A DNA stretch of 64,000 bases from Verrucomicrobiia bacterium (GTDB lineage: Bacteria > Verrucomicrobiota > Verrucomicrobiia > Limisphaerales > Fontisphaeraceae): positions 124,001-188,000 of the forward strand of contig JAOAIT010000009.1 in NCBI GenBank assembly GCA_026414565.1, given 5' to 3'. A program made the translations under genes and the position numbers. The notes under the pieces are model-generated. The model was not told where the DNA came from, did no database searches, and saw only the letters and a program-made list of their open reading frames with translations. Shown in pieces: positions 20,496-30,199 of the stretch (its first letter is position 1; the number at the start of each line of letters is the position of its first letter).

Positions 20496-21050
20496 TCAGG
20501 CCCAGGTGCGGGGACGGGGTGTGCGGATAATTTCCGTCAAGGTCGAGCTGACGGCGGTGGCCTGGCTGCTCAATCGCTCGCGGTATTGGCCGGTTTCGTC
20601 AAAGGCGGGCTTGCCGGCCTCCAACCAGTCCACATGGGACCGTTGCGCCAGACTTTTGAGATAGGACATCATCTCCACCGCCACAGGGTGGGCCTGATTT
20701 TGGCGGTCAATCACCGCCGTCATGGCACAGGTTAGACCGTGGCTGCCTGCCGCCCATGACTCAAGCCACTGCTTCACCGTCTCCGGCAACGGCGAGCGCC
20801 CATGCGCGGCGACGATGACGATGTCCGGCGGTTGCAGTTGTCCCAGCACCGCCTGCAGCCCAAACGCGGCAAACTCCATGGTGGTGGTGTGTGCCTCGGC
20901 CGCCACTGGCAACAGGGGCAGCATACGAGCAATGACCGTCCGCGCCTGCGCGCCGCATGCGGCATCCTCACAAACCACGAGGATGTTGAGATGAATGGCA
21001 TCGCCCCAAACGTTGTCCGGGCCTGACTGTTGCAGTCTGGGGGTGTTCAT
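20496..21050 (-). CDS. Unknown protein, possible degenerate response-regulator fold
   Basis: 184 residues from the ATG at 21050. The first half alternates hydrophobic strands ([24 protein letters not shown]) and helices in a Rossmann or receiver-like pattern, but no phosphorylation or nucleotide motif is intact, and I do not recognise the family. The C-terminal third is helical and Arg/Ser-rich. It is divergent from gcvP, with 115 bases between the starts, and convergent with the aldo/keto reductase. A longer upstream extension in frame would overlap the start of gcvP and is rejected. Confidence 0.62.
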
Positions 21051-21165
21051 AAAGGAACCTACGCCCCGGCCCGGGCGTTTGCAAATGGTTTCAAAAAAAA
21101 TTTGGCCGGGCGGACGGATTTCTTGGGGCTTGCATGAATGGCATGGTGGATTAAGTTGCCCCTCT

Positions 21166-24084
21166 ATGTCTGAAGGACACGTCGTTGCGCAGGGCGGCCC
21201 TGGGGCCAAGGCCGCTTCTGAGGAAGGGTTGCAGCATCCGGATCAATTTTGCTGCCGCCACATTGGCCCCCAGACGGCCAGAGAGCTGGAGGAGATGTTG
21301 GCGGTGTGCGGTAAGCCTTCATTGGAGGCCCTGATGGAGGCTGTGGTGCCGCCAGCCATACGCCGAAAAGAACCGCTGGCCCTGCCCCCGGCACGTACCG
21401 AGGCCGGGGCCTTGGCGGACTTGCGCAAACTGGCCCAGAAAAACCGCGTTTTCCGCTCCTACCTGGGCATGGGCTACCACGATTGCCTCACGCCGGCGGT
21501 GATACAGCGCAATATTCTGGAAAACCCCGGCTGGTACACCCAGTACACCCCCTACCAGGCTGAGATTTCCCAGGGGCGTCTGGAGATGTTGCTCAATTTT
21601 CAAACCATGGTGTGCGATTTGACCGCCATGGAGATTGCCAATGCCTCCCTGCTGGATGAAGCCACGGCCGCAGCGGAAGCCCTCATGATGTGCGCCCGGT
21701 TGCGGGAGGACCGGCGGCGGTTCCTGGCGGCGCGGCATTGCCATCCGCAGACCCTGGAAGTGGTACAGACACGTTTGGAAGCCTTGGGGGCGCATCTGGA
21801 AGTGGGAGATCCCGCCACCTTCCAGTTCACCGCCGACGTGGCCGGGGTGCTTGTGCAATACCCGGACACTTACGGAACGATTGAGGACTACACGGCCCTG
21901 GTGGAACAGGCCCATGCGGCCGGGGCGATGGTGGTGATGGCCGTGGACTTGTTGAGCCTCACGCTCTTACGACCGCCGGGGGAGATGGGCGCAGACATTG
22001 TGGTGGGTAATGCTCAGCGGTTTGGCGTGCCGCTGGGCTTTGGCGGGCCCCATGCCGCCTTTCTGGCCACACGGGATGCGTATAAACGCCAGATGCCCGG
22101 CCGGCTGGTGGGGGTCAGCAAGGACTCGCGCGGACGGCCCGCCCTCCGGCTGGCTTTGGGCACCCGGGAGCAGCATATTCGCCGAGAAAAGGCCACCTCC
22201 AACATTTGCACGGCCCAGGCGCTGCTGGCCAACATGGCGGCAGCCTATGCCATCTATCACGGCCCGGAGGGGCTGACGCGAATTGCCCGGCATGTGCACC
22301 GGCTGGCCCGTGTGCTGGCGGCGGGAGTTGCCCGGCTGGGACATGAGCCAGCCCCCGGACCTTGGTTTGACACCCTCAAAATCCGGTTAAACGGCTGCAC
22401 GGCGAACGAGGTGCGCGGCTGGGCCGAGGCCCGGCAGGTTAATTTGCGGTATGCAGGGCCGGATACGGTGGTGGTGGCCTTGGACGAAACGGTCTGCGAG
22501 GAAGACTTGGAGGTCTTGCTGGCCATCTTCAATCGCGGTCGGGCGTCCGGTTTCAAAGTGCGCGAGCTGGCGGGGAACATCCCAGCCGAAGCCCCGCCGG
22601 ACTGGCCGGCGAGCTTGCGCCGCCAGAGCGCGTTTCTAAAGCATCCCGTCTTTCACGCCTACCATTCGGAAACGGAAATGCTGCGCTATCTAAGGCGGTT
22701 GGAGGCGCGGGACTTGTCGCTGTGCCAAAGCATGATTCCGCTGGGAAGCTGCACCATGAAGCTTAACCCCGCCGCGGCCATGCAGCCGGTGAGCTGGCCC
22801 GAATTTGCGCGGTTGCACCCCTTTGCCCCGCCGGAGCAGGCGCAGGGGTATTTGGAAATGTTTGCCCAACTGGAGGCGTGGCTGGCGGAGGTGACCGGTT
22901 TGCCGGCGGTTTCCCTGCAACCCAACGCCGGCTCGCAAGGGGAGTACGCTGGATTGCTGGTCATTCGCCAGCATCACCGTAACCGCGGCCAGGGCCAGCG
23001 GGACATCTGCCTGATCCCCATGTCGGCGCATGGCACCACCCCCGCCAGCGCCGTCATGGCCGGGTTCAAGGTGGTGCCGGTGCTCTGCGATCGGGAGGGC
23101 AATGTGGATTTGCAGGATTTGCGCGCCAAGGCCGCCCAACATGCCGGCCAACTGGCCTGTGTTATGGTAACCTATCCCTCCACGCATGGGGTGTTTGAGG
23201 AGGGCATTGTCGAGCTGTGCCGCATCATCCATGAACAGGGCGGCCTGGTGTACATGGACGGCGCCAACCTGAACGCCCAGGTGGGTTGGTGTCGGCCGGG
23301 GGACATGGGGGCGGATGTCTGCCATATCAATTTGCACAAGACTTTTGCCATCCCCCACGGCGGCGGCGGGCCGGGCATGGGGCCGATTGCCGTGCGCGCG
23401 GAGCTGGCGGAGTTTCTGCCGGGGCATGGCCTGGCTGGCGTTCACAAACTGAGAAAAGGCGGCGCTGTCTCGGCGGCCCCCTGGGGCAGTGCCTCGATCC
23501 TCACCATTTCCTGGATGTACATGGCCATGATGGGGGCGGAAGGTTTGCAGCGAGCCACGGCCTACGCCGTTCTGAATGCCAACTACATTTCCCGGCGGCT
23601 GGCGCCGTATTTCCCGACGTTGTACCGCGGGCGCAACGGGTACGTGGCGCACGAGTGCATTCTGGACTTGCGCGCCTTCAAGGCGGTGACGGCGGAGGAT
23701 GTGGCCAAGCGCCTGATGGACTACGGCTTCCACGCCCCCACCCTGTCCTGGCCGGTGCCTGGCACGTTGATGGTGGAGCCGACGGAAAGCGAATCCAAGC
23801 GCGAGCTGGACCGGTTTTGCGAGGCCATGATCGCCATTCATGCCGAGATGCAGGCGGTGGAGACCGGGCAGATGGATCGGGCCAACAATCCGCTCAAAAA
23901 CGCTCCCCACACCGCAGACATGCTTGCCGGTGAGTGGGCGCGGCCGTACTCGCGCGAGCAGGCTGCTTTTCCCACGACGGCCTTGAAGGAGCACAAGTTC
24001 TGGCCGGCCGTGGGGCGGGTGGACAATGTGTGGGGGGATCGCAACCCTGTCTGCACGTGTGCCGGCATGGAAGAATACCAGTAA
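21166..24084 (+). CDS. gcvP: Glycine dehydrogenase (decarboxylating), P protein
   Basis: 972 residues, the single-chain form carrying both halves of the dimeric enzyme. It decarboxylates glycine with PLP and passes aminomethyl to the lipoyl H protein. The PLP lysine is Lys725 in [18 protein letters not shown]. Other signatures are FIGMGYHD-like [11 protein letters not shown], and [14 protein letters not shown]. The ATG at 21166 is chosen; an upstream open frame to 20995 overlaps the divergent gene. The gcvT and gcvH partners are not in the window and no glycine riboswitch was recognised upstream. Confidence 0.97.
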
Positions 24085-24181
24085 TTTTTTGAACGGATGC
24101 CGGCGGAAATTGTCTAATCGGCATTGGACGCCAGACGTGGTGTTTGACCTAAAAAAAATGCGGAAAAAAACAATAAACCCG

Positions 24182-24210
24182 TTGACAAGGGCTTGCAGGG
24201 CTGGCTATAA
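24182..24210 (+). promoter_or_regulatory. Sigma-70-type promoter of the polysaccharide export cassette
   Basis: A consensus TTGACA (24182-24187) is followed after 17 bases by CTATAA (24205-24210), or after 18 by TATAAG. The first start codon is at 24279, leaving a leader of about 60 bases. It is the best promoter in the window. Confidence 0.7.
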
Positions 24211-24278
24211 GAAACCCAAGTATCGCATGAGTTGGCTTTGGGGAGCCCCAAGTCATCGCAGGTAAAACAAACAAAGCT

Positions 24279-25547
24279 ATGAAAAAACTTTTTGCAACCG
24301 CCGGGATGGCCGCCCTGGGCGCTGCCAGCATGAACGCCGCGACTCCGCCAACGCTCCTGCCGCAAGAGCAAGCGAAGCCATGGAGCGTCTCGGCCTCGGT
24401 GCGTGGTTTTTACGATGACAACTATGCGACTTTGCGCAGCGGCCTGCGGCGCGATTCCTTTGGTTTGGAAGTCAGCCCGTCGGTCCGTGGTCATATCATC
24501 AAGGAGATGACCCAACTGTACGCCTCGTACAAATTTGGCCTGCGGTACTATGAGGATCGCATCAATAACGAGCTGGATTACAGCCATCTGGCCAACCTGA
24601 TGCTCAATCACGATTTCAGCGAGCGCTTCCGGCTCACGCTCTATGATGATTTCGTGGTGGCCCAGGAGCCGACGCTGCTCAATCCCTCCCAGCCGGTGCA
24701 GACCCTGCGGGTGCGGGGCAGCAACCTGCGCAACACCGCCGGGGCCGATTTCCGGGCGCGGGTGACGGAGAGCGTCGCCATTGAGCCGGGGTATTCGTTC
24801 ACGGTGTATGACTATCGGGAGAAAGGTAACGGCAGTTACTCGGCCATTCTGGACCGGCACGAACACCTGGCCAAGGTGGGGGTGCGCTGGATCAACATGC
24901 TGGAGCGCACCGATGGTTTGCTGGGCTACCAGTACATGTACACTGGCCACACCAGCAAGGATACCTTGGACCCGACGGGGTTGTTTTATCTGTCGCCCAA
25001 ACTGCGTGACACACGGTCGCATTATTACTTTGCGGGTGTGGATTACAGCGCGTCGGAGCGGTTGTCGCTGAGCGCCCGCGCGGGGGCGATGACGGTGACG
25101 TATCGCAACAACCAGAGCAACCGCACGAGTCCCTATTTTGATTTGTCTGCCAGCTATCGGCTGGCGGAGGCCAGCAGCCTCCAGGTGGGTTACAAACTGC
25201 AGCGGATGACCACTGACATGATTGGTTACACCGGCCTGGCGCCGCTCAATCTGACGGTGGATCAATTGGCGCACTTCTTCTATGCGCGGGTCAGCCACAC
25301 CATCAGCCGGCTGACGCTGAACGCGGGGGCCCAGTACCAATATGGCACCTTCCGCGGCGGTCTGGTCAACAGCCAGGATGAAGGTTACCTGAGCGTGGAC
25401 CTGGGGGCCAGCTACAAGATTAATGAGTTCCTGGCCGCCGAAGCGGGCTACTCCTTTGACTGGCTGAAGGACTACGGCTGGCCGACCGGCACGGAGCGCG
25501 ATTTCCATCGCAACTTTGTGTTTATCGGTCTGAAGGCCACTTACTAA
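24279..25547 (+). CDS. Outer-membrane beta-barrel protein of the polysaccharide export cassette
   Basis: 422 residues. A short signal peptide (MKKLFATAGMAALGAASMNA) precedes a protein made of alternating Tyr/Arg/Leu strands with turns of Asp/Asn/Gly, ending in an aromatic C-terminal strand (VFIGLKATY), the usual signal for outer-membrane assembly. About 16-18 strands are plausible by eye. It has no lipoprotein site. The position, before a Wzc-type kinase and a short Wza-type protein, fits a barrel that forms the outer-membrane export channel, as known for barrel/short-OPX pairs. A metabolite porin is the alternative. Confidence 0.85.
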   Translation: MKKLFATAGMAALGAASMNAATPPTLLPQEQAKPWSVSASVRGFYDDNYATLRSGLRRDSFGLEVSPSVRGHIIKEMTQLYASYKFGLRYYEDRINNELDYSHLANLMLNHDFSERFRLTLYDDFVVAQEPTLLNPSQPVQTLRVRGSNLRNTAGADFRARVTESVAIEPGYSFTVYDYREKGNGSYSAILDRHEHLAKVGVRWINMLERTDGLLGYQYMYTGHTSKDTLDPTGLFYLSPKLRDTRSHYYFAGVDYSASERLSLSARAGAMTVTYRNNQSNRTSPYFDLSASYRLAEASSLQVGYKLQRMTTDMIGYTGLAPLNLTVDQLAHFFYARVSHTISRLTLNAGAQYQYGTFRGGLVNSQDEGYLSVDLGASYKINEFLAAEAGYSFDWLKDYGWPTGTERDFHRNFVFIGLKATY

Positions 25548-25601
25548 ACCGGCAGCCGCGAGGAGCCATCCCGAGGACAAAGACTGTAACGACAACGTGG
25601 G

Positions 25602-25638
25602 AGGAGGCTGGACCCAAAACATCTAGCCTCCTTTTTTT
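25602..25638 (+). terminator. Terminator-like hairpin touching the kinase start codon
   Basis: An 8-bp stem AGGAGGCT (25602-25609) / AGCCTCCT (25625-25632) with a 15-base loop is followed by seven T residues that end directly at the ATG at 25639. It has all parts of an intrinsic terminator or attenuator, and its 5' arm contains the only GGAGG sequence near the start, too far away (about 30 bases) to serve it. Confidence 0.75.
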
Positions 25639-27831
25639 ATGATGGACAGTACGAAAAGTTTTGGGACGCCACCGGCGGAAACCAAGCTGCATTTCCTGGA
25701 CTACTGGCGCATCATCCGGGTGCGCAAGACGGTGATCCTGACGGTGTTTATGCTGGTGGTGCTGACCACCACCCTGGTCACGCAATTCCTGCCGCCCACC
25801 TATGAAAGCGTGGCGCGCATCGAAGTGGAAAAGGACATCCCTGATGTGGAGGGTTTCCGCGAGCGTCCCATCGTCTCCACGTTTGATCCGTACTGGATGC
25901 AAACCCAGTTTGAGATCATCAAATCGTCCACCGTGCTGGATGCCGTCATTAACAAGTTGCGGCTCAATGAACGGTTTGCTGACCGGGATGGCATGCAGGT
26001 GCCTTACCGCATGGACGAAACACGCCTGCTCTTGCGGAGGATGGTGGACCTCAACCTTTACCGCAATACCACCATAATTGAAATTCGCGTCGAAAGCCAG
26101 AAGCCGGAAGAGGCCGCTGAGATCGCCAATGCCATTGCCGAGGCTTATCGGGACTACCGTCAGCGCACCCGTTTGACGCTGGTGGAGAAAGGCATCCAGA
26201 CCCTCCAGGATGAGATGAAGGCCAAGGAACTGGAATACTCGGCCCGGGAGTCCAACGTGGTTCATCTGCGTAAAAATCTGGAAATTAATGACATTGATCC
26301 CTACAGCGGGCGGGTTTATGGCACCTTGGACTCCGAGACCATCCGGCGGCTGGATGCAGTCCACGTGGACGCCCAGGCCCGATACGTGGAGCTGAATGCC
26401 CAATACGAAAAACTGGCCAAAATGAGCCGCACGGAGTTGAAGCGGGCGCTGGTCACCGTGCAGCCCGACAGCATCCTGATGAATTTGCTGGAGGATTTGA
26501 ACAAGACCGAGCAGCAACTGGCGCTGACGGCTGAGGATTACGGCGAGGCGCACCCCGAATTCAAGCGGCTGGTGAATCTGCTCAATACCCAGGAGCGATT
26601 GGTGGATGAGCGGCTCACCGGCATCTTGGAGGGCCTCAAGGCTGTCGTCGAGAAAAGCAAGGCGGGCGTCGAAGAGCTGGCGCACCGGCTGGACGAGGCC
26701 AAGAAACGTGACCGCGAGGCGGGCGCCAAGCTGATGGAATACTATTCCGCCAAAGAGGAGCTGGAGCGGGCGCGCAACGTCAAGAATGCCCTGGACATGC
26801 GCATTCAGGCGGCCATTTTGGACAACCAGAAAATCCAGTATTCCGTGGTCAAACCGGTGGACCAGGCGGAGCCCATTTTGCGGCCGGTCCGGCCCAAGAA
26901 ACTCCTGAACATCAGCCTGGGCGTGGTGGCTGGCCTGATTTTGGGCATCGGACTGGCCTTCTTTGTGGAGTACTTGGATACCAGCGTCAAGACCATTGAC
27001 GATGTGGAGCGGGCCTTGCAGGCACCGGTGCTGGGGGTCATCCCGCAAAACGTGGGCAATCTGTTGGAGGAGGGGCCGGAAAGCCCACATGCAGAAGCCT
27101 ATCGAGTATTACGAACCAATCTATTGTTCTCACGCAAGGACGAGCGCTGGAATACCCTGACCGTGGTCAGCGCCGGCGCTGGCGAGGGCAAGTCCACCAC
27201 CTTGTTCAACCTGGCGGTGGTGTTTGCGCAGAACGGCAACCGCGTGCTTATTGTGGACTCCGACCTGCGACGTCCGAGTCTGCACAAGCGGCTGGGGGTC
27301 TCCAATAGCATCGGGTTGACCAACTTTTTGCTCAAACAAAACAACCTGGCGGAGGTGATTCAGACCACCAGCCTGCCGACGCTGGATTTCATGCCCAGCG
27401 GCAAGCTGCCCAGCAGCGCCATGGGCATTCTTAATTCGCCCGCCATGAAGGAGATGATTGCCGAATTGAAGCGGCGCTATGACTTTGTGTTCTTTGACTC
27501 ACCGCCCATCATGGGCATCAGTGATGCTTCCATCCTGGCCAGCGAGGTGGACATGACGCTGCAGATCATTCAGTACCGCCGCTATCCGCAACCCATGACC
27601 ATCCGCGCCAAGCAGATGATTGAAAAGGTGGGTGGCAACTTGATGGGCATTGTGCTGAACAACATCAATATGTCGTCCGACTCTTACTACTACTACTACA
27701 GCGGTTACTTCGAAGAGTCGTATTACAAGGACAGCGACGACAAATCCTCCAGCCGGCGCAGCAAGAGCAAACGGGGTGGCAGCGAAGCCAGCCAGGCCTC
27801 CGCCGAGGTGGAGATCAAGCAGAAGTATTAA
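25639..27831 (+). CDS. Wzc-type polysaccharide co-polymerase with tyrosine autokinase
   Basis: 730 residues. Membrane segments flank a large periplasmic coiled-coil part: TM1 about residues 31-52, TM2 about 422-442 after the proline-rich KPVDQAEPILRPVRPKK. The cytoplasmic BY-kinase has Walker A SAGAGEGKSTT (Lys518), Walker A' VLIVDSDLRRPSLHKR and Walker B FVFFDSPP. The C-terminal tail has the autophosphorylation cluster with five tyrosines in a row (TAC x5 at 27685-27699) and more tyrosines after it, then a basic end. It controls chain length and export of an extracellular polysaccharide. It starts at ATG ATG without a normal ribosome site, right after a terminator. Confidence 0.96.
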   Translation: MMDSTKSFGTPPAETKLHFLDYWRIIRVRKTVILTVFMLVVLTTTLVTQFLPPTYESVARIEVEKDIPDVEGFRERPIVSTFDPYWMQTQFEIIKSSTVLDAVINKLRLNERFADRDGMQVPYRMDETRLLLRRMVDLNLYRNTTIIEIRVESQKPEEAAEIANAIAEAYRDYRQRTRLTLVEKGIQTLQDEMKAKELEYSARESNVVHLRKNLEINDIDPYSGRVYGTLDSETIRRLDAVHVDAQARYVELNAQYEKLAKMSRTELKRALVTVQPDSILMNLLEDLNKTEQQLALTAEDYGEAHPEFKRLVNLLNTQERLVDERLTGILEGLKAVVEKSKAGVEELAHRLDEAKKRDREAGAKLMEYYSAKEELERARNVKNALDMRIQAAILDNQKIQYSVVKPVDQAEPILRPVRPKKLLNISLGVVAGLILGIGLAFFVEYLDTSVKTIDDVERALQAPVLGVIPQNVGNLLEEGPESPHAEAYRVLRTNLLFSRKDERWNTLTVVSAGAGEGKSTTLFNLAVVFAQNGNRVLIVDSDLRRPSLHKRLGVSNSIGLTNFLLKQNNLAEVIQTTSLPTLDFMPSGKLPSSAMGILNSPAMKEMIAELKRRYDFVFFDSPPIMGISDASILASEVDMTLQIIQYRRYPQPMTIRAKQMIEKVGGNLMGIVLNNINMSSDSYYYYYSGYFEESYYKDSDDKSSSRRSKSKRGGSEASQASAEVEIKQKY

Positions 27832-27847
27832 CCGGCCCAATGTTTTG

Positions 27848-28465
27848 ATGCGTATGGTGTGTCATCTCTTTTACCGCCAGCTCTGCCGCCTTGGGGTTTA
27901 TGGCGCGTGGCTTTTCCTGGGGCTGGCCTGTCTGGCCCTCAGCAGCCCGGCCGCCGAAGCTACCAATGTGGCTGCCTCGAGCCAGATTCTGCAGGTGGGT
28001 GATGTGGTGAAAATCTCCCTGGAGCACCCGGAATGGCGGGGCAAACCGCCGTTTGAGCAGCGGATCAAGGAGGATGGCACCATCACCCTGCCGTACATCA
28101 ACAGCATTCAGGCGGCCCGCAAATCGCCGTCCCAATTGGAGAAGGACATCCGCAACGCTTATCTGGAGCAGAAATATTACAAACATTTGAGCGTGATCGT
28201 GATGTCCACGGAGAACCGTTTCTTTTTTGTGTACGGCATCGTCAAAATGCCCGGCCGTTATCCCTATGTGGGTGATTTGACCGTCACCCGGGCCATCGCC
28301 ACGGCGGGTGGTTTTACCGAGTTCAGCAAAAAAGACAACGTCACCGTAACCCGGCAGGATGGCACCATCGAGCGGGTGGATTGCGAGAAGGCGGAGAAAA
28401 ACCCGGGACTCGATTTGCCGGTGTATCCGGGGGATACCATTATTGTGCAGCGGCGGTGGCTCTAG
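27848..28465 (+). CDS. Short Wza/OPX-type polysaccharide export protein
   Basis: 205 residues. An N-terminal hydrophobic segment (about 14-34) acts as signal; the Cys there lacks a proper lipobox. The Poly_export domain follows (SSQILQVGDVVKISLEHPEW and DGTITLPYINSIQAA), then a single SLBB-type domain (FFFVYGIVKMPGRYPYVGDL, RAIATAGGFTEFSKKDN) and the closing VYPGDTIIVQRRW. The C-terminal amphipathic helix that lets classical Wza cross the outer membrane is missing. This matches the class of OPX proteins that work with a separate beta-barrel, and one is encoded two genes upstream. The downstream FHA-like gene begins 6 bases later. Confidence 0.92.
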   Translation: MRMVCHLFYRQLCRLGVYGAWLFLGLACLALSSPAAEATNVAASSQILQVGDVVKISLEHPEWRGKPPFEQRIKEDGTITLPYINSIQAARKSPSQLEKDIRNAYLEQKYYKHLSVIVMSTENRFFFVYGIVKMPGRYPYVGDLTVTRAIATAGGFTEFSKKDNVTVTRQDGTIERVDCEKAEKNPGLDLPVYPGDTIIVQRRWL

Positions 28466-28471
28466 GGGCGC

Positions 28472-28858
28472 ATGTTTCAATTACAGATTCTTTCCGGCAG
28501 GGCGGCGGGCACGGTGCAAACGGCCCGCCGTTTGCCTTTCAGCGTGGGACGTCGCGCCGGGGCCGACTTCTGTGCGGAGGAACCCGGCGTGTGGGATGAG
28601 CATTTGCGCTTTGAGCTGGAAGGGGGCGAAGGAATTCGGGTAAACGCCCTGGGGGAGGCGCCGTTGGTGGTGAACGGCACACCGATGCGGCGTGCGCTGC
28701 TGCGCAACGGCGATGTGTTGGAACTGGGCGGCTTGAAGCTGCGTTTCTGGCTGGCGCCAGCGCCCTTGCGCTCGCTCAAAATGCGGGAATGGCTGACGTG
28801 GGGGGTACTGCTGGTATTGGGAGTGCTGCAGGTGATGTTGCTGATCTGGCTGCGCTGA
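28472..28858 (+). CDS. Tail-anchored FHA-like protein
   Basis: 128 residues. The first 95 residues resemble a forkhead-associated domain: FSVGRRAGADFCAEE, a WDEHLRFEL strand, NGTPMRRALLRNGDVLELGG and KLRFWL. The usual SxxH motif is reduced to a WDEH, so phosphopeptide binding is uncertain. A C-terminal hydrophobic segment (about 106-127) would anchor it with the domain in the cytoplasm. It is the last gene of the export cassette, 6 bases after the OPX gene. Binding to the phosphotyrosine or phospho-Thr state of the kinase is possible inference. Confidence 0.78.
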   Translation: MFQLQILSGRAAGTVQTARRLPFSVGRRAGADFCAEEPGVWDEHLRFELEGGEGIRVNALGEAPLVVNGTPMRRALLRNGDVLELGGLKLRFWLAPAPLRSLKMREWLTWGVLLVLGVLQVMLLIWLR

Positions 28859-28915
28859 GCCGGCGCCATCCCTTGGCTGGCTCCCGGAATTGCGCCGGGG
28901 CGGCCTGCGGAAAGT

Positions 28916-28944
28916 TTGACTTCCCGCCGGGGTTGCCGTTGAAT
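28916..28944 (+). promoter_or_regulatory. Candidate argG promoter
   Basis: TTGACT (28916-28921), a 17-base spacer and TTGAAT (28939-28944), 22 bases before the ATG at 28967. The spacing is ideal and each box differs from consensus by one or two bases. Confidence 0.6.
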
Positions 28945-28966
28945 CGGGCACGCAAAGTTGAACATT

Positions 28967-30199
28967 ATGAAAATCGTGCTGGCATATTCGGGCGGCCTCG
29001 ACACCTCGGTGCTGCTCTCCTGGATCAAGGAAAAGTACAACGCGGAAATGATCGCCTTCTGCGCCAACATCGGCCAGGAGGAGGAACTCAAGGGCTTGGA
29101 GAAAAAAGCCAAAAAGACCGGCGCCTCCAAGGTTTATATTGATGACTTGCAGGAGGAATTCGCGCGGGATTTTATTTTTCCGATGATCCAGGCCGGGGCC
29201 ATCTATGAGGGCCAATATTACATGGGCACGAGCATTGCCCGGCCGCTGATCGCCAAGCGGATGATTGAGATTGCCCGCAAGGAAAAGGCCGATGCCATTG
29301 CCCATGGCGCCACCGGCAAGGGCAATGACCAGGTGCGATTTGAGCTGACGGCGGCCGCCCTGGCGCCGGATATTCAGGTCATTGCCCCGTGGCGGGACGC
29401 CGCTTTTCGGGCGCAGTTTCCGGGGCGGGCCGAGATGATTCAATACTGCGAGGCCAAGGGCATTCCCGTCCAGGCCACAGCCAAGAAGCCCTACTCAATG
29501 GATCGCAACCTGCTGCATATTTCCTTCGAGGCTGGTCTGCTTGAGGATCCCTGGACGGACATGTTTGCGCCGGAACACAAAGACATGTTCAAGCTGTCGG
29601 TGGCGCCGGAAGATGCCCCCGATCGGCCCGAGTATGTGGAGTTGGAGTTCAAGCAGGGCAATTGCGTGGCGGTCAATGGCGAAAAGCTCTCTCCCCTGGG
29701 CGTGATGAAGAAGCTCAACAAGCTGGGAGGCAAGCATGGTGTAGGCCGCGTGGACATGGTGGAAAACCGGTATGTGGGCATGAAGTCGCGTGGCGTGTAC
29801 GAGACACCGGGCGGCGCCATTCTGCATTTTGCCCATCGCCAGATCGAGTCGCTGACGATGGACCGGGAGGTCATGCATTTACGGGATTCCTTGATCCCGC
29901 GTTACGCCGAGCTGGTTTATTACGGCTACTGGTTCAGTCCCGAGCGCTATGCCCTGCAGGCGCTGGTGACCGAGAGCCAGCGCAACGTGACGGGCACGGT
30001 GCGTGTCAAGCTCTACAAGGGCAACATCATGGTGGCCGGCCGCAAATCCCCGGTCAGCCTTTACAATCCGCACATCGCCACGATGGAGGCGGATCCCACC
30101 CGGGATTATGATCAAGGCGATGCCACCGGCTTCATCAAATTGAATGCCCTCCGGTTGAAAGTCGCGGCCAAAGTGCACGGCCCCCTGAACAAACGCTGA
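28967..30199 (+). CDS. argG: Argininosuccinate synthase
   Basis: 410 residues. It ligates citrulline and aspartate using ATP in arginine synthesis. The ATP-binding P-loop variant is [12 protein letters not shown] at the N-terminus; further signatures are [13 protein letters not shown] and [10 protein letters not shown]-type [10 protein letters not shown]. Length is normal. The ATG at 28967 is chosen over a TTG three codons upstream because it directly precedes the conserved first strand. argC is elsewhere in the window (38380-39462, opposite strand), so arginine genes are scattered. Confidence 0.97.

Follow-up and report, generated by a model that had tools for sequence, protein, structure and literature searches.

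A conserved verrucomicrobial gene unit proposed to export polysaccharide through a short OPX protein and an outer membrane barrel, with an FHA-domain protein and an attenuator-like hairpin

Four Genes and an RNA Hairpin Form a Putative Polysaccharide Export Unit

We analyzed a stretch of 64,000 nucleotides (the window) from the genome of a Verrucomicrobiia bacterium of the order Limisphaerales (GenBank assembly GCA_026414565.1, contig JAOAIT010000009.1, positions 124,001 to 188,000). It encodes, one after the other, a predicted outer membrane barrel, a Wzc-type kinase, a short outer membrane polysaccharide export (OPX) protein, and a protein with a forkhead-associated (FHA) domain. Open reading frames were found at all four places given in the original prediction, and all of them lie on the forward strand. 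The unit, in window coordinates, comprises the following features:

24279..25547, + strand: predicted outer membrane beta-barrel of 422 residues, BBP2_2 family, with an N-terminal hydrophobic, signal-like segment; proposed pore (Pfam, AlphaFold2 model)
25603..25638, + strand: terminator-like RNA hairpin with arms at 25603-25612 and 25622-25631, a loop of 9, and a run of seven T at 25632-25638; proposed attenuator
25639..27831, + strand: Wzc-type polysaccharide copolymerase (PCP) of 730 residues with a C-terminal bacterial tyrosine kinase (BY-kinase) and a Tyr-rich tail (Pfam, NCBIfam)
27848..28465, + strand: short OPX protein of 205 residues (class 3, D1-D2 type), Poly_export plus one SLBB domain, without a C-terminal helix (Pfam, hydropathy)
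28472..28858, + strand: tail-anchored FHA-domain protein of 128 residues with a noncanonical phosphopeptide pocket (Pfam, model)

The OPX protein scored above the Pfam cut-offs for Poly_export (PF02563, 50.7 bits; cut-off 28) and SLBB (PF10531, 38.6 bits; cut-off 27) and stops at the SLBB domain. A hydropathy scan of 50 OPX proteins, including those of the window and of a paralogous cluster (L090), found no hydrophobic segment beginning within the last 80 residues of any of them, and the C termini of the relatives stop within about five residues of the end of the window protein (...PGDxIxVPRRxF/W in most). The original prediction, that the protein ends after one SLBB domain and lacks the helix by which Wza spans the outer membrane, is thus borne out, and the sequence appears to leave no room for such a helix. 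Having Poly_export and SLBB domains only, the protein falls into class 3, and its length lies below the 280 residues that bound the helix-less OPX proteins of composite translocons; the barrel gene, two genes away, is within the five-gene distance used to recognize such translocons. The nearest solved OPX sequences are 9n9a (186 residues) and 7xfd (185 residues), both short chains named "polysaccharide export protein", followed by Wza entries. Additionally, a loose pattern found a lipobox-like Cys in the signal region of 33 of 49 OPX relatives. Many relatives have a clearer lipobox than the window (27848-27960) and its sister species (L039, 6430-7035), in which the Cys belongs to a GLAC within the hydrophobic stretch; anchoring of the protein may therefore have changed in the genus of the window.

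The kinase contains Wzz, GNVR, and AAA_31 domains (Pfam) and passes the NCBIfam BY-kinase model TIGR01007 (164.8 bits; curated cut-off, 108.05). A Walker motif and a run of Tyr residues are present in all 49 full-length copies, and the first two hydrophobic segments lie 365 to 400 residues apart in the 50 proteins scanned for hydropathy.

The barrel protein scored 31.8 bits against BBP2_2 (PF10082; gathering score, 23.7), a family matched by 49 of 51 aligned members at an E-value of 0.001. An AlphaFold2 model built on the alignment of the 51 members gave a predicted local distance difference test (pLDDT) score of 87.7 and a predicted template modeling (pTM) score of 0.84. We counted 18 barrel strands manually in the strand list of the predicted model, with two interrupted strands merged and two short loop strands omitted. 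Structure prediction thereby agrees with the barrel originally proposed, and the domain matches and gene positions confirm its place two genes upstream of the OPX gene with the Wzc-type kinase between them. A phmmer search of the barrel against PDB sequences returned only antibody and MexA matches (E-values of 0.029 to 0.44), which we took as chance.

The Gene Order Is Conserved within the Order and Its Core Extends beyond It

Two sets of loci from the order were compared. One held 52 loci; the other held 80 loci, kept from 183 relatives after a scan of genome contigs with one peptide pattern. Both sets partly share contigs, and their counts are not additive. The paralogous cluster L090, which has a different gene order, was excluded from profiles and from the intergenic set. 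In 75 of the 80 loci the order barrel-kinase-OPX-FHA was found, and the remaining five are cut by contig ends; the grouping of the genes is therefore not due to chance, and the co-occurrence of barrel and OPX that had been predicted holds across genomes. The same order recurs in the 52-locus set, with the FHA gene directly behind the OPX gene in 46 loci. Four of the remaining six (L055, L067, L082, and L088) are cut short, one (L068) has an FHA gene by profile on the same contig (L188), and one (L090) is the paralogous cluster.

A single barrel sequence was sufficient to find relatives in 53 of 58 genomes, nearly each from a different family. With a barrel profile, 284 of 320 genomes of the order were matched at an E-value of 0.001 or better (140 of the 154 better genomes), and 271 of 320 reached 1e-40 (manual row count). 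No barrel match was obtained in, among others, nine genomes of family f24 and three of family f8. The records with a barrel are titled mostly Verrucomicrobia, Pedosphaera, Limisphaera, or Limisphaerales, and two just bacterium. Three further records are titled Akkermansia muciniphila and one Candidatus Omnitrophota (L132, L178, L205, and L175) and may be mislabelled.

Further, in a draw of 240 genomes from the phylum, 56 including that of the window had a barrel match at 1e-20 or better, the other 55 belonging to the same class or phylum. From these 55 matches, 20 loci outside the order were picked by hand. The kinase gene follows the barrel gene in all 20 and an OPX gene lies behind the kinase in 15, while an FHA gene was found behind this core in none; the opposite strand upstream carries two weak FHA matches (37 and 42 bits). 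Two of these loci (L241 and L242, family f68) have a PstS-like frame, recognized by eye, where the OPX gene would be expected, and no OPX by profile. We infer from these gene orders that the barrel-kinase-OPX core probably predates the order and that the FHA gene joined it within the order. In Verrucomicrobiota, the composite barrel translocon known from work on Myxococcus would be a conserved gene unit.

A Covarying Terminator-Like Hairpin Precedes the Kinase Gene

In the window, the region between the barrel and kinase genes contains GGAGGCTGGA-CCCAAAACA-TCTAGCCTCC, followed by seven T and the kinase ATG (25603-25638). This stem was absent from the original prediction. The corresponding sequence was obtained from 132 of 133 sources (the window and 132 loci), yielding 111 distinct intergenic regions after removal of L090. 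When a hairpin was defined as at least 6 pairs at -10 kcal/mol or better within four bases of TTTT, 106 of the 111 regions carried one (median energy, -19.15), compared to 9 of 111 dinucleotide-shuffled regions. By this definition none was found in L058, L067, and L087, and only weaker stems in L047 and L055; the L058 region does contain a stem, but its T run is broken.

The stem also covaries. Across 79 of 80 representatives (alignment A3; L157 was omitted for its long tail), 8 of 10 stem pairs have changed on both sides. Pair 20-55 is A-U in 53 representatives, G-C in 25, G-U in 1, and broken in none (n = 79), and at one stem position G-U is the commonest pair type (53 of 79). Overall, 94.9% of the cells are paired, against 89.1% in shuffled and 36 to 64% in slid versions, a percentage biased upward because the representatives were drawn only from the 108 of 111 regions with a hairpin. 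Doubly changed cells number 58 compared to 16.9 after shuffling, and none of 500 shuffles reached any of five measures.

With its G+C-rich stem, T run, and covariation, the hairpin has the marks of an intrinsic terminator or attenuator. A covariance model placed its best site at the exporter in 32 of 39 genomes (manual reading). The 12 second sites that were read resemble ordinary terminators, often with a perfect GGCCGG/CCGGCC core; two lie behind groEL, and none has an exporter gene among its two neighboring frames. Judged from these sequences, the hairpin appears to be the usual intrinsic-terminator stem of the order, located and retained within the operon. A GAGGC(C/T)GG flavor is common to the ordinary stems of terminator type in the order (L213-L224), for example behind groEL in L218 and L221. 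Outside the order, a hairpin of such energy precedes the kinase gene in 7 or 8 of the 20 loci, depending on which of two differently cut stretches is used, and the sequences differ.

We considered the hairpin as a unique protein-binding RNA and dropped this idea: its exact pattern occurs once in the genome of the window, but the covariance model finds similar stems elsewhere. An Rfam scan of 24000-29100 at E-values up to 5 gave two hits below threshold, RF02567 (18.1 bits of 45; 25596-25784, covering the hairpin) and RF02175 (17.5 bits of 60), both taken as chance.

The stem could be a plain terminator of the barrel message, with a separate promoter for the kinase genes. In favor of this, stem and T run are those expected of an intrinsic terminator, and unrelated genes of the order are followed by similar stems. 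The distance from the end of the hairpin to the kinase ATG, however, is 4 to 22 nt in 106 of 108 intergenic regions (38 and 39 nt in the other two). A promoter behind it would have hardly any room because of this short distance, and any promoter upstream would transcribe through the hairpin; we therefore regard this explanation as unlikely, although it deserves a hearing. Attenuation is the most likely role of the stem, which we call a putative attenuator, because it ends right before the start codon and a message from upstream would pass it before the kinase, OPX, and FHA genes. Upstream of the barrel gene, a sigma-70-like TTGACA-18-TATAAG was noticed by eye (about 24183-24212); a promoter scan found none, and we make no claim of it.

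The FHA Protein Has a Converted Phosphopeptide Pocket

The fourth protein matches the Pfam FHA domain (PF00498) with 30 bits (gathering score, 20.7). Against PF16697, the cytoplasmic domain of YscD from the type III secretion system (T3SS), it scored 30.8 bits, with the gathering score of 33.2 not reached. Its model (pLDDT 92.1) shows an FHA fold with a C-terminal helix at residues 103-127, and a C-terminal hydrophobic segment was found in 43 of 47 FHA proteins. The best structural matches of the model are GarA and OdhI (Z 17.1 for 6i2r_B; 17.0 for 7rj3_C and 4qcj).

The Arg, Ser, and Asn of the FHA pocket bind phosphothreonine. We aligned 47 copies and checked the register against TB39.8, using the HMMER alignment to its FHA domain. 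All 47 retain the His of SxxH, and 45 retain the Arg of the GR motif. The canonical Ser of SxxH is Trp in all 47, and the canonical Asn position holds Ala in 37, Gly in 8, and Asn in none. Eight further copies have Trp (6), Cys (1), or Ala (1) at the Ser position and none has Ser, compared to FHA matches outside the order, where Ser is kept in five of nine. The domain has thus lost the Ser and Asn of its phosphothreonine pocket.

A search of the class found an FHA protein of at least 103 bits in 21 of the 23 genomes of the order with a match, the other two being G107 and G158; the best FHA match outside the order reached 75.7 bits. In G107, in G271, and in G395, a relative of G158, the contig breaks off too early for an FHA gene to be included. 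G158 itself (L258) has the barrel, kinase, and OPX genes and ample sequence behind them, and no FHA gene. Conversely, a full-length FHA homolog with no exporter gene nearby occurs in G170 and G025, both of family f24 (139.7 and 131.8 bits). It is encoded between the gene of an LptF/LptG permease (lptF) and accA (L121, 8950-9336; L122, 9704-10087; Pfam for L122), a placement that hints at a wider envelope role.

The protein might therefore be an independent regulator of the envelope or of lipids whose gene merely sits at the end of the operon, as the f24 homologs without barrel, kinase, or OPX, the G158 core without an FHA gene, and the missing FHA gene behind all 20 cores outside the order would suggest. 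The FHA gene, however, stands right after the OPX gene in 46 of 52 and 75 of 80 loci of the order, and we consider full independence rather unlikely. The original prediction of an FHA-like membrane protein as an extra part of the exporter is supported by gene order within the order, with one loss among the loci read (G158) and two f24 genomes in which the protein occurs without an exporter.

The protein might also read phosphorylation in the classical way, by recognizing phosphothreonine of the kinase or of some other partner, as its fold, its GarA and OdhI matches (Z of about 17), and the conserved Arg would allow. BY-kinases make phosphotyrosine, not phosphothreonine. Given this product, and given a pocket in which Ser has become Trp in every aligned copy and Asn has become Ala or Gly in 45 of 47, we regard such reading as improbable. 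We thus favor an FHA domain that acts as a protein-protein adaptor.

Proposed Export Mechanism

We propose that a Wzx/Wzy-type exopolysaccharide pathway has its export end in the products of these four genes. The proposal builds on the gene content, order, domains, and conservation, the missing OPX helix, the predicted barrel fold, and the base-pair covariation described above; the contacts between the parts, the direction of export, the adaptor role, the attenuation, and the polymer are what it would add. In this mechanism, the inner membrane Wzc-type protein would control chain length, with cycles of tyrosine phosphorylation controlling assembly of its oligomer. It would dock on a periplasmic ring of the short OPX protein, and the ring would feed the polymer into the 18-stranded barrel. 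Since the OPX protein is without a membrane-spanning helix, the barrel would be the actual outer membrane pore. The C-terminal helix of the FHA protein would anchor it in the inner membrane, and the FHA domain would face the cytoplasm, most likely binding the kinase domain there as an adaptor and not as a classical phosphothreonine reader. The hairpin would attenuate transcription, and kinase, OPX, and FHA protein would be made in a set, at a lower or regulated ratio to the barrel, because every transcript from upstream must read through it. We consider this mechanism as a whole, with barrel pore, FHA adaptor, and attenuator, quite probable.

The principle of a composite translocon made of a short OPX protein and a barrel was published in 2022 (Schwabe et al., PMC9601211; Saidi et al., PMC9603273; here and below, the cited papers are represented by excerpts). 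EpsX is described there as an 18-stranded barrel, like AlgE, its nearest solved fold, and EpsX and EpsY are reported to interact and to stabilize each other (PMC9601211). The window unit resembles the Myxococcus system in its D1-D2 short OPX protein without an outer membrane helix, the coupled gene for a barrel, here predicted to have 18 strands, and a PCP in the unit. It differs in the order barrel-kinase-OPX-FHA, the FHA gene, the hairpin before the kinase gene, and the lack of a polymer-synthesis gene (PMC9601211). The same differences separate it from the systems of the class 3 OPX proteins WzaX, WzaS, and WzaB with PgaA-like barrels, with which it shares an OPX protein of Poly_export and SLBB only and a barrel partner (PMC9603273). 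With the XrtA/PEP-CTERM export set, the unit shares matches below the cut-offs: TIGR03027 is the best NCBIfam match of the OPX protein (63.7 bits; curated cut-off, 180), and the kinase scores 134.9 bits against TIGR03018 (cut-off, 230.65). The window barrel gave no match to the barrel model of that set, TIGR03016, at E-values up to 1, unlike the second barrel of its own genome, which comes weakly near it.

There is a precedent for attenuation in export operons, at a different position. In Klebsiella capsule clusters, a stem-loop between wzc and wbaP, predicted at -8.49 kcal/mol, was described as a possible attenuator (PMC3438125). Both stems are terminator-like and adjoin a wzc-type gene in a polysaccharide export operon, but the Klebsiella stem stands behind wzc and before the gene of the initiating transferase (PMC3438125), whereas the present hairpin stands before the kinase start, is conserved across the order, and covaries. 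As for the FHA protein, its fold is shared with GarA, OdhI, and the cytoplasmic FHA domain of YscD/PscD, of which the YscD type is also membrane linked; what sets it apart from these proteins is the C-terminal tail anchor, the Trp in place of the pocket Ser, and the linkage of its gene to a polysaccharide exporter. Among the literature matches listed, we found no FHA protein in an OPX system, no such hairpin, and no such system in Verrucomicrobiota. The strings "Verrucomicro" and "FHA" are absent from the main texts of PMC9601211 and PMC9603273, and Fig. 4 of PMC9601211 may include Verrucomicrobiota under the PVC group. In the excerpt of PMC2875238, which came up for FHA domain and polysaccharide export terms, the FHA term occurs only in the reference list. 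On this basis, the principle is known, and the FHA partner and the conserved attenuator-like hairpin are new.

Several observations weigh against the proposed mechanism. No OPX gene was found behind the kinase gene in 5 of the 20 loci outside the order. In a second-look structural alignment, the Occ/BenF-type porin 3jty_C (Z 18.2, rmsd [root-mean-square deviation] 5.5, 306 residues aligned) tied with AlgE (3rbh_D; Z 18.0, rmsd 5.3, 312 residues aligned); the initial Foldseek list for the barrel, a mix of TonB receptors, porins, and AlgE, was used only through this second look. Against the predicted model, AlgE scores no better than 18-stranded substrate porins of the OccK/OprD/BenF type, so the fold cannot tell export from uptake and would by itself be no proof of polymer export. 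The window barrel and the second barrel of the genome are also not clearly similar when compared pairwise (E-value of 0.13). The hairpin resembles ordinary terminators of the order, such as those behind groEL, and a consensus terminator scan did not list it (the loop limit of the scan is 8; the hairpin loop is 9). Finally, the FHA homologs without an exporter in f24 and the core without an FHA gene in G158 argue against a strict four-part machine with a strictly dedicated FHA subunit.

Alternatively, the barrel could serve as a general porin or as an anchor at the surface and merely share the operon, like Wzi of group 1 capsules, with the OPX protein passing the polymer outward in another way. 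This explanation draws on the porin tie and on the Wzi-type barrels described near OPX genes, 32 of them near class 3 genes (Saidi et al., PMC9603273), but is very unlikely in view of OPX proteins without a C-terminal helix, of barrel and kinase together in 20 of 20 outside loci with OPX in 15, and of the reported interaction and mutual stabilization of EpsX and EpsY (PMC9601211). The reading as a barrel-dependent short-OPX exporter thus retains the support of the co-occurrence of barrel and OPX genes, the helix-less OPX protein, and the 18-strand barrel model.

A bolder variant would be an exporter of four subunits, in which the FHA protein with its converted pocket (Trp for Ser) acts as a dedicated cytoplasmic clamp or gate on the kinase ring and the attenuator sets the ratio of pore to engine. 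We offer this only tentatively and think it somewhat doubtful. If true, it would combine the first FHA adaptor in a polysaccharide exporter with the first order-wide attenuator, among the literature matches listed. The unit offers two new parts that are small and open to experiment: the FHA protein, for which an action on the kinase is possible, and the hairpin, through which the balance between pore and engine may be set.

Genome Context and the Exported Polymer

The unit is flanked on both sides by genes of the same orientation:

20995-24084, + strand: gcvP, upstream flank of the barrel gene (Pfam)
28958-30199, + strand: gene that we take, from its sequence, to be argG, downstream flank of the FHA gene

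Among the 52 loci, gcvP and argG flank the four genes only in the sister species (L039).

The four-gene unit itself contains no polymer-synthesis gene. Members of one membrane protein family (L051: 631 residues; Pfam PMT_2, 33.6 bits; cut-off, 26.1) are encoded immediately upstream of the barrel in 20 of the 52 loci. Genes for an NtrC-type regulator (18 loci) and a histidine kinase (16 loci) often precede this gene, with one member of each group standing elsewhere, and 19 loci have a purH-type gene that follows on the opposite strand.

The genome of the window has one PMT_2-type homolog, on contig C57. Among the barrel-linked ones, it matches best, at 53% identity, a homolog in G002 whose gene immediately precedes that of the barrel; G002 is the other member of the family of the window with such a homolog in that set. 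The C57 cluster (L228, 4505-14938) includes an exosortase (TIGR02602, 119.4 bits; cut-off, 105.55), an EpsI-like protein (29.1 bits; cut-off, 42.8), a sugar-1-phosphate transferase (TIGR03025, 394.5 bits; cut-off, 295.55), and a Wzy_C protein (60.8 bits; cut-off, 31.7). A Wzx-type match (PF01943, 35.5 bits; cut-off, 28.2) lies on contig C30, and the sole PF13440 match of the genome is MurJ. We therefore infer that the exporter may serve the exosortase-linked pathway on C57 and that the export genes may have moved away from the PMT_2-type neighbor in the genus of the window. The C57 cluster also has two tandem frames of a response-regulator/metallo-beta-lactamase type.

Exopolysaccharide loci are usually variable. 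Since the barrel is nevertheless found in 284 of 320 genomes, the exporter probably serves a basic surface polymer in an order known mostly from metagenomes.

The same genome carries a second barrel-OPX-kinase triplet on contig C7 (L007, 8301-12520). Its gene gaps of 3 and 8 bases are too short to hold such a hairpin. The C7 barrel scored 49.4 bits against TIGR03016 (cut-off, 90.85), and the C7 OPX protein lies just under the Poly_export cut-off (26.1 bits of 28). Additionally, the genome encodes an OPX-kinase pair on contig C15 and an OPX protein of 408 residues on contig C62.

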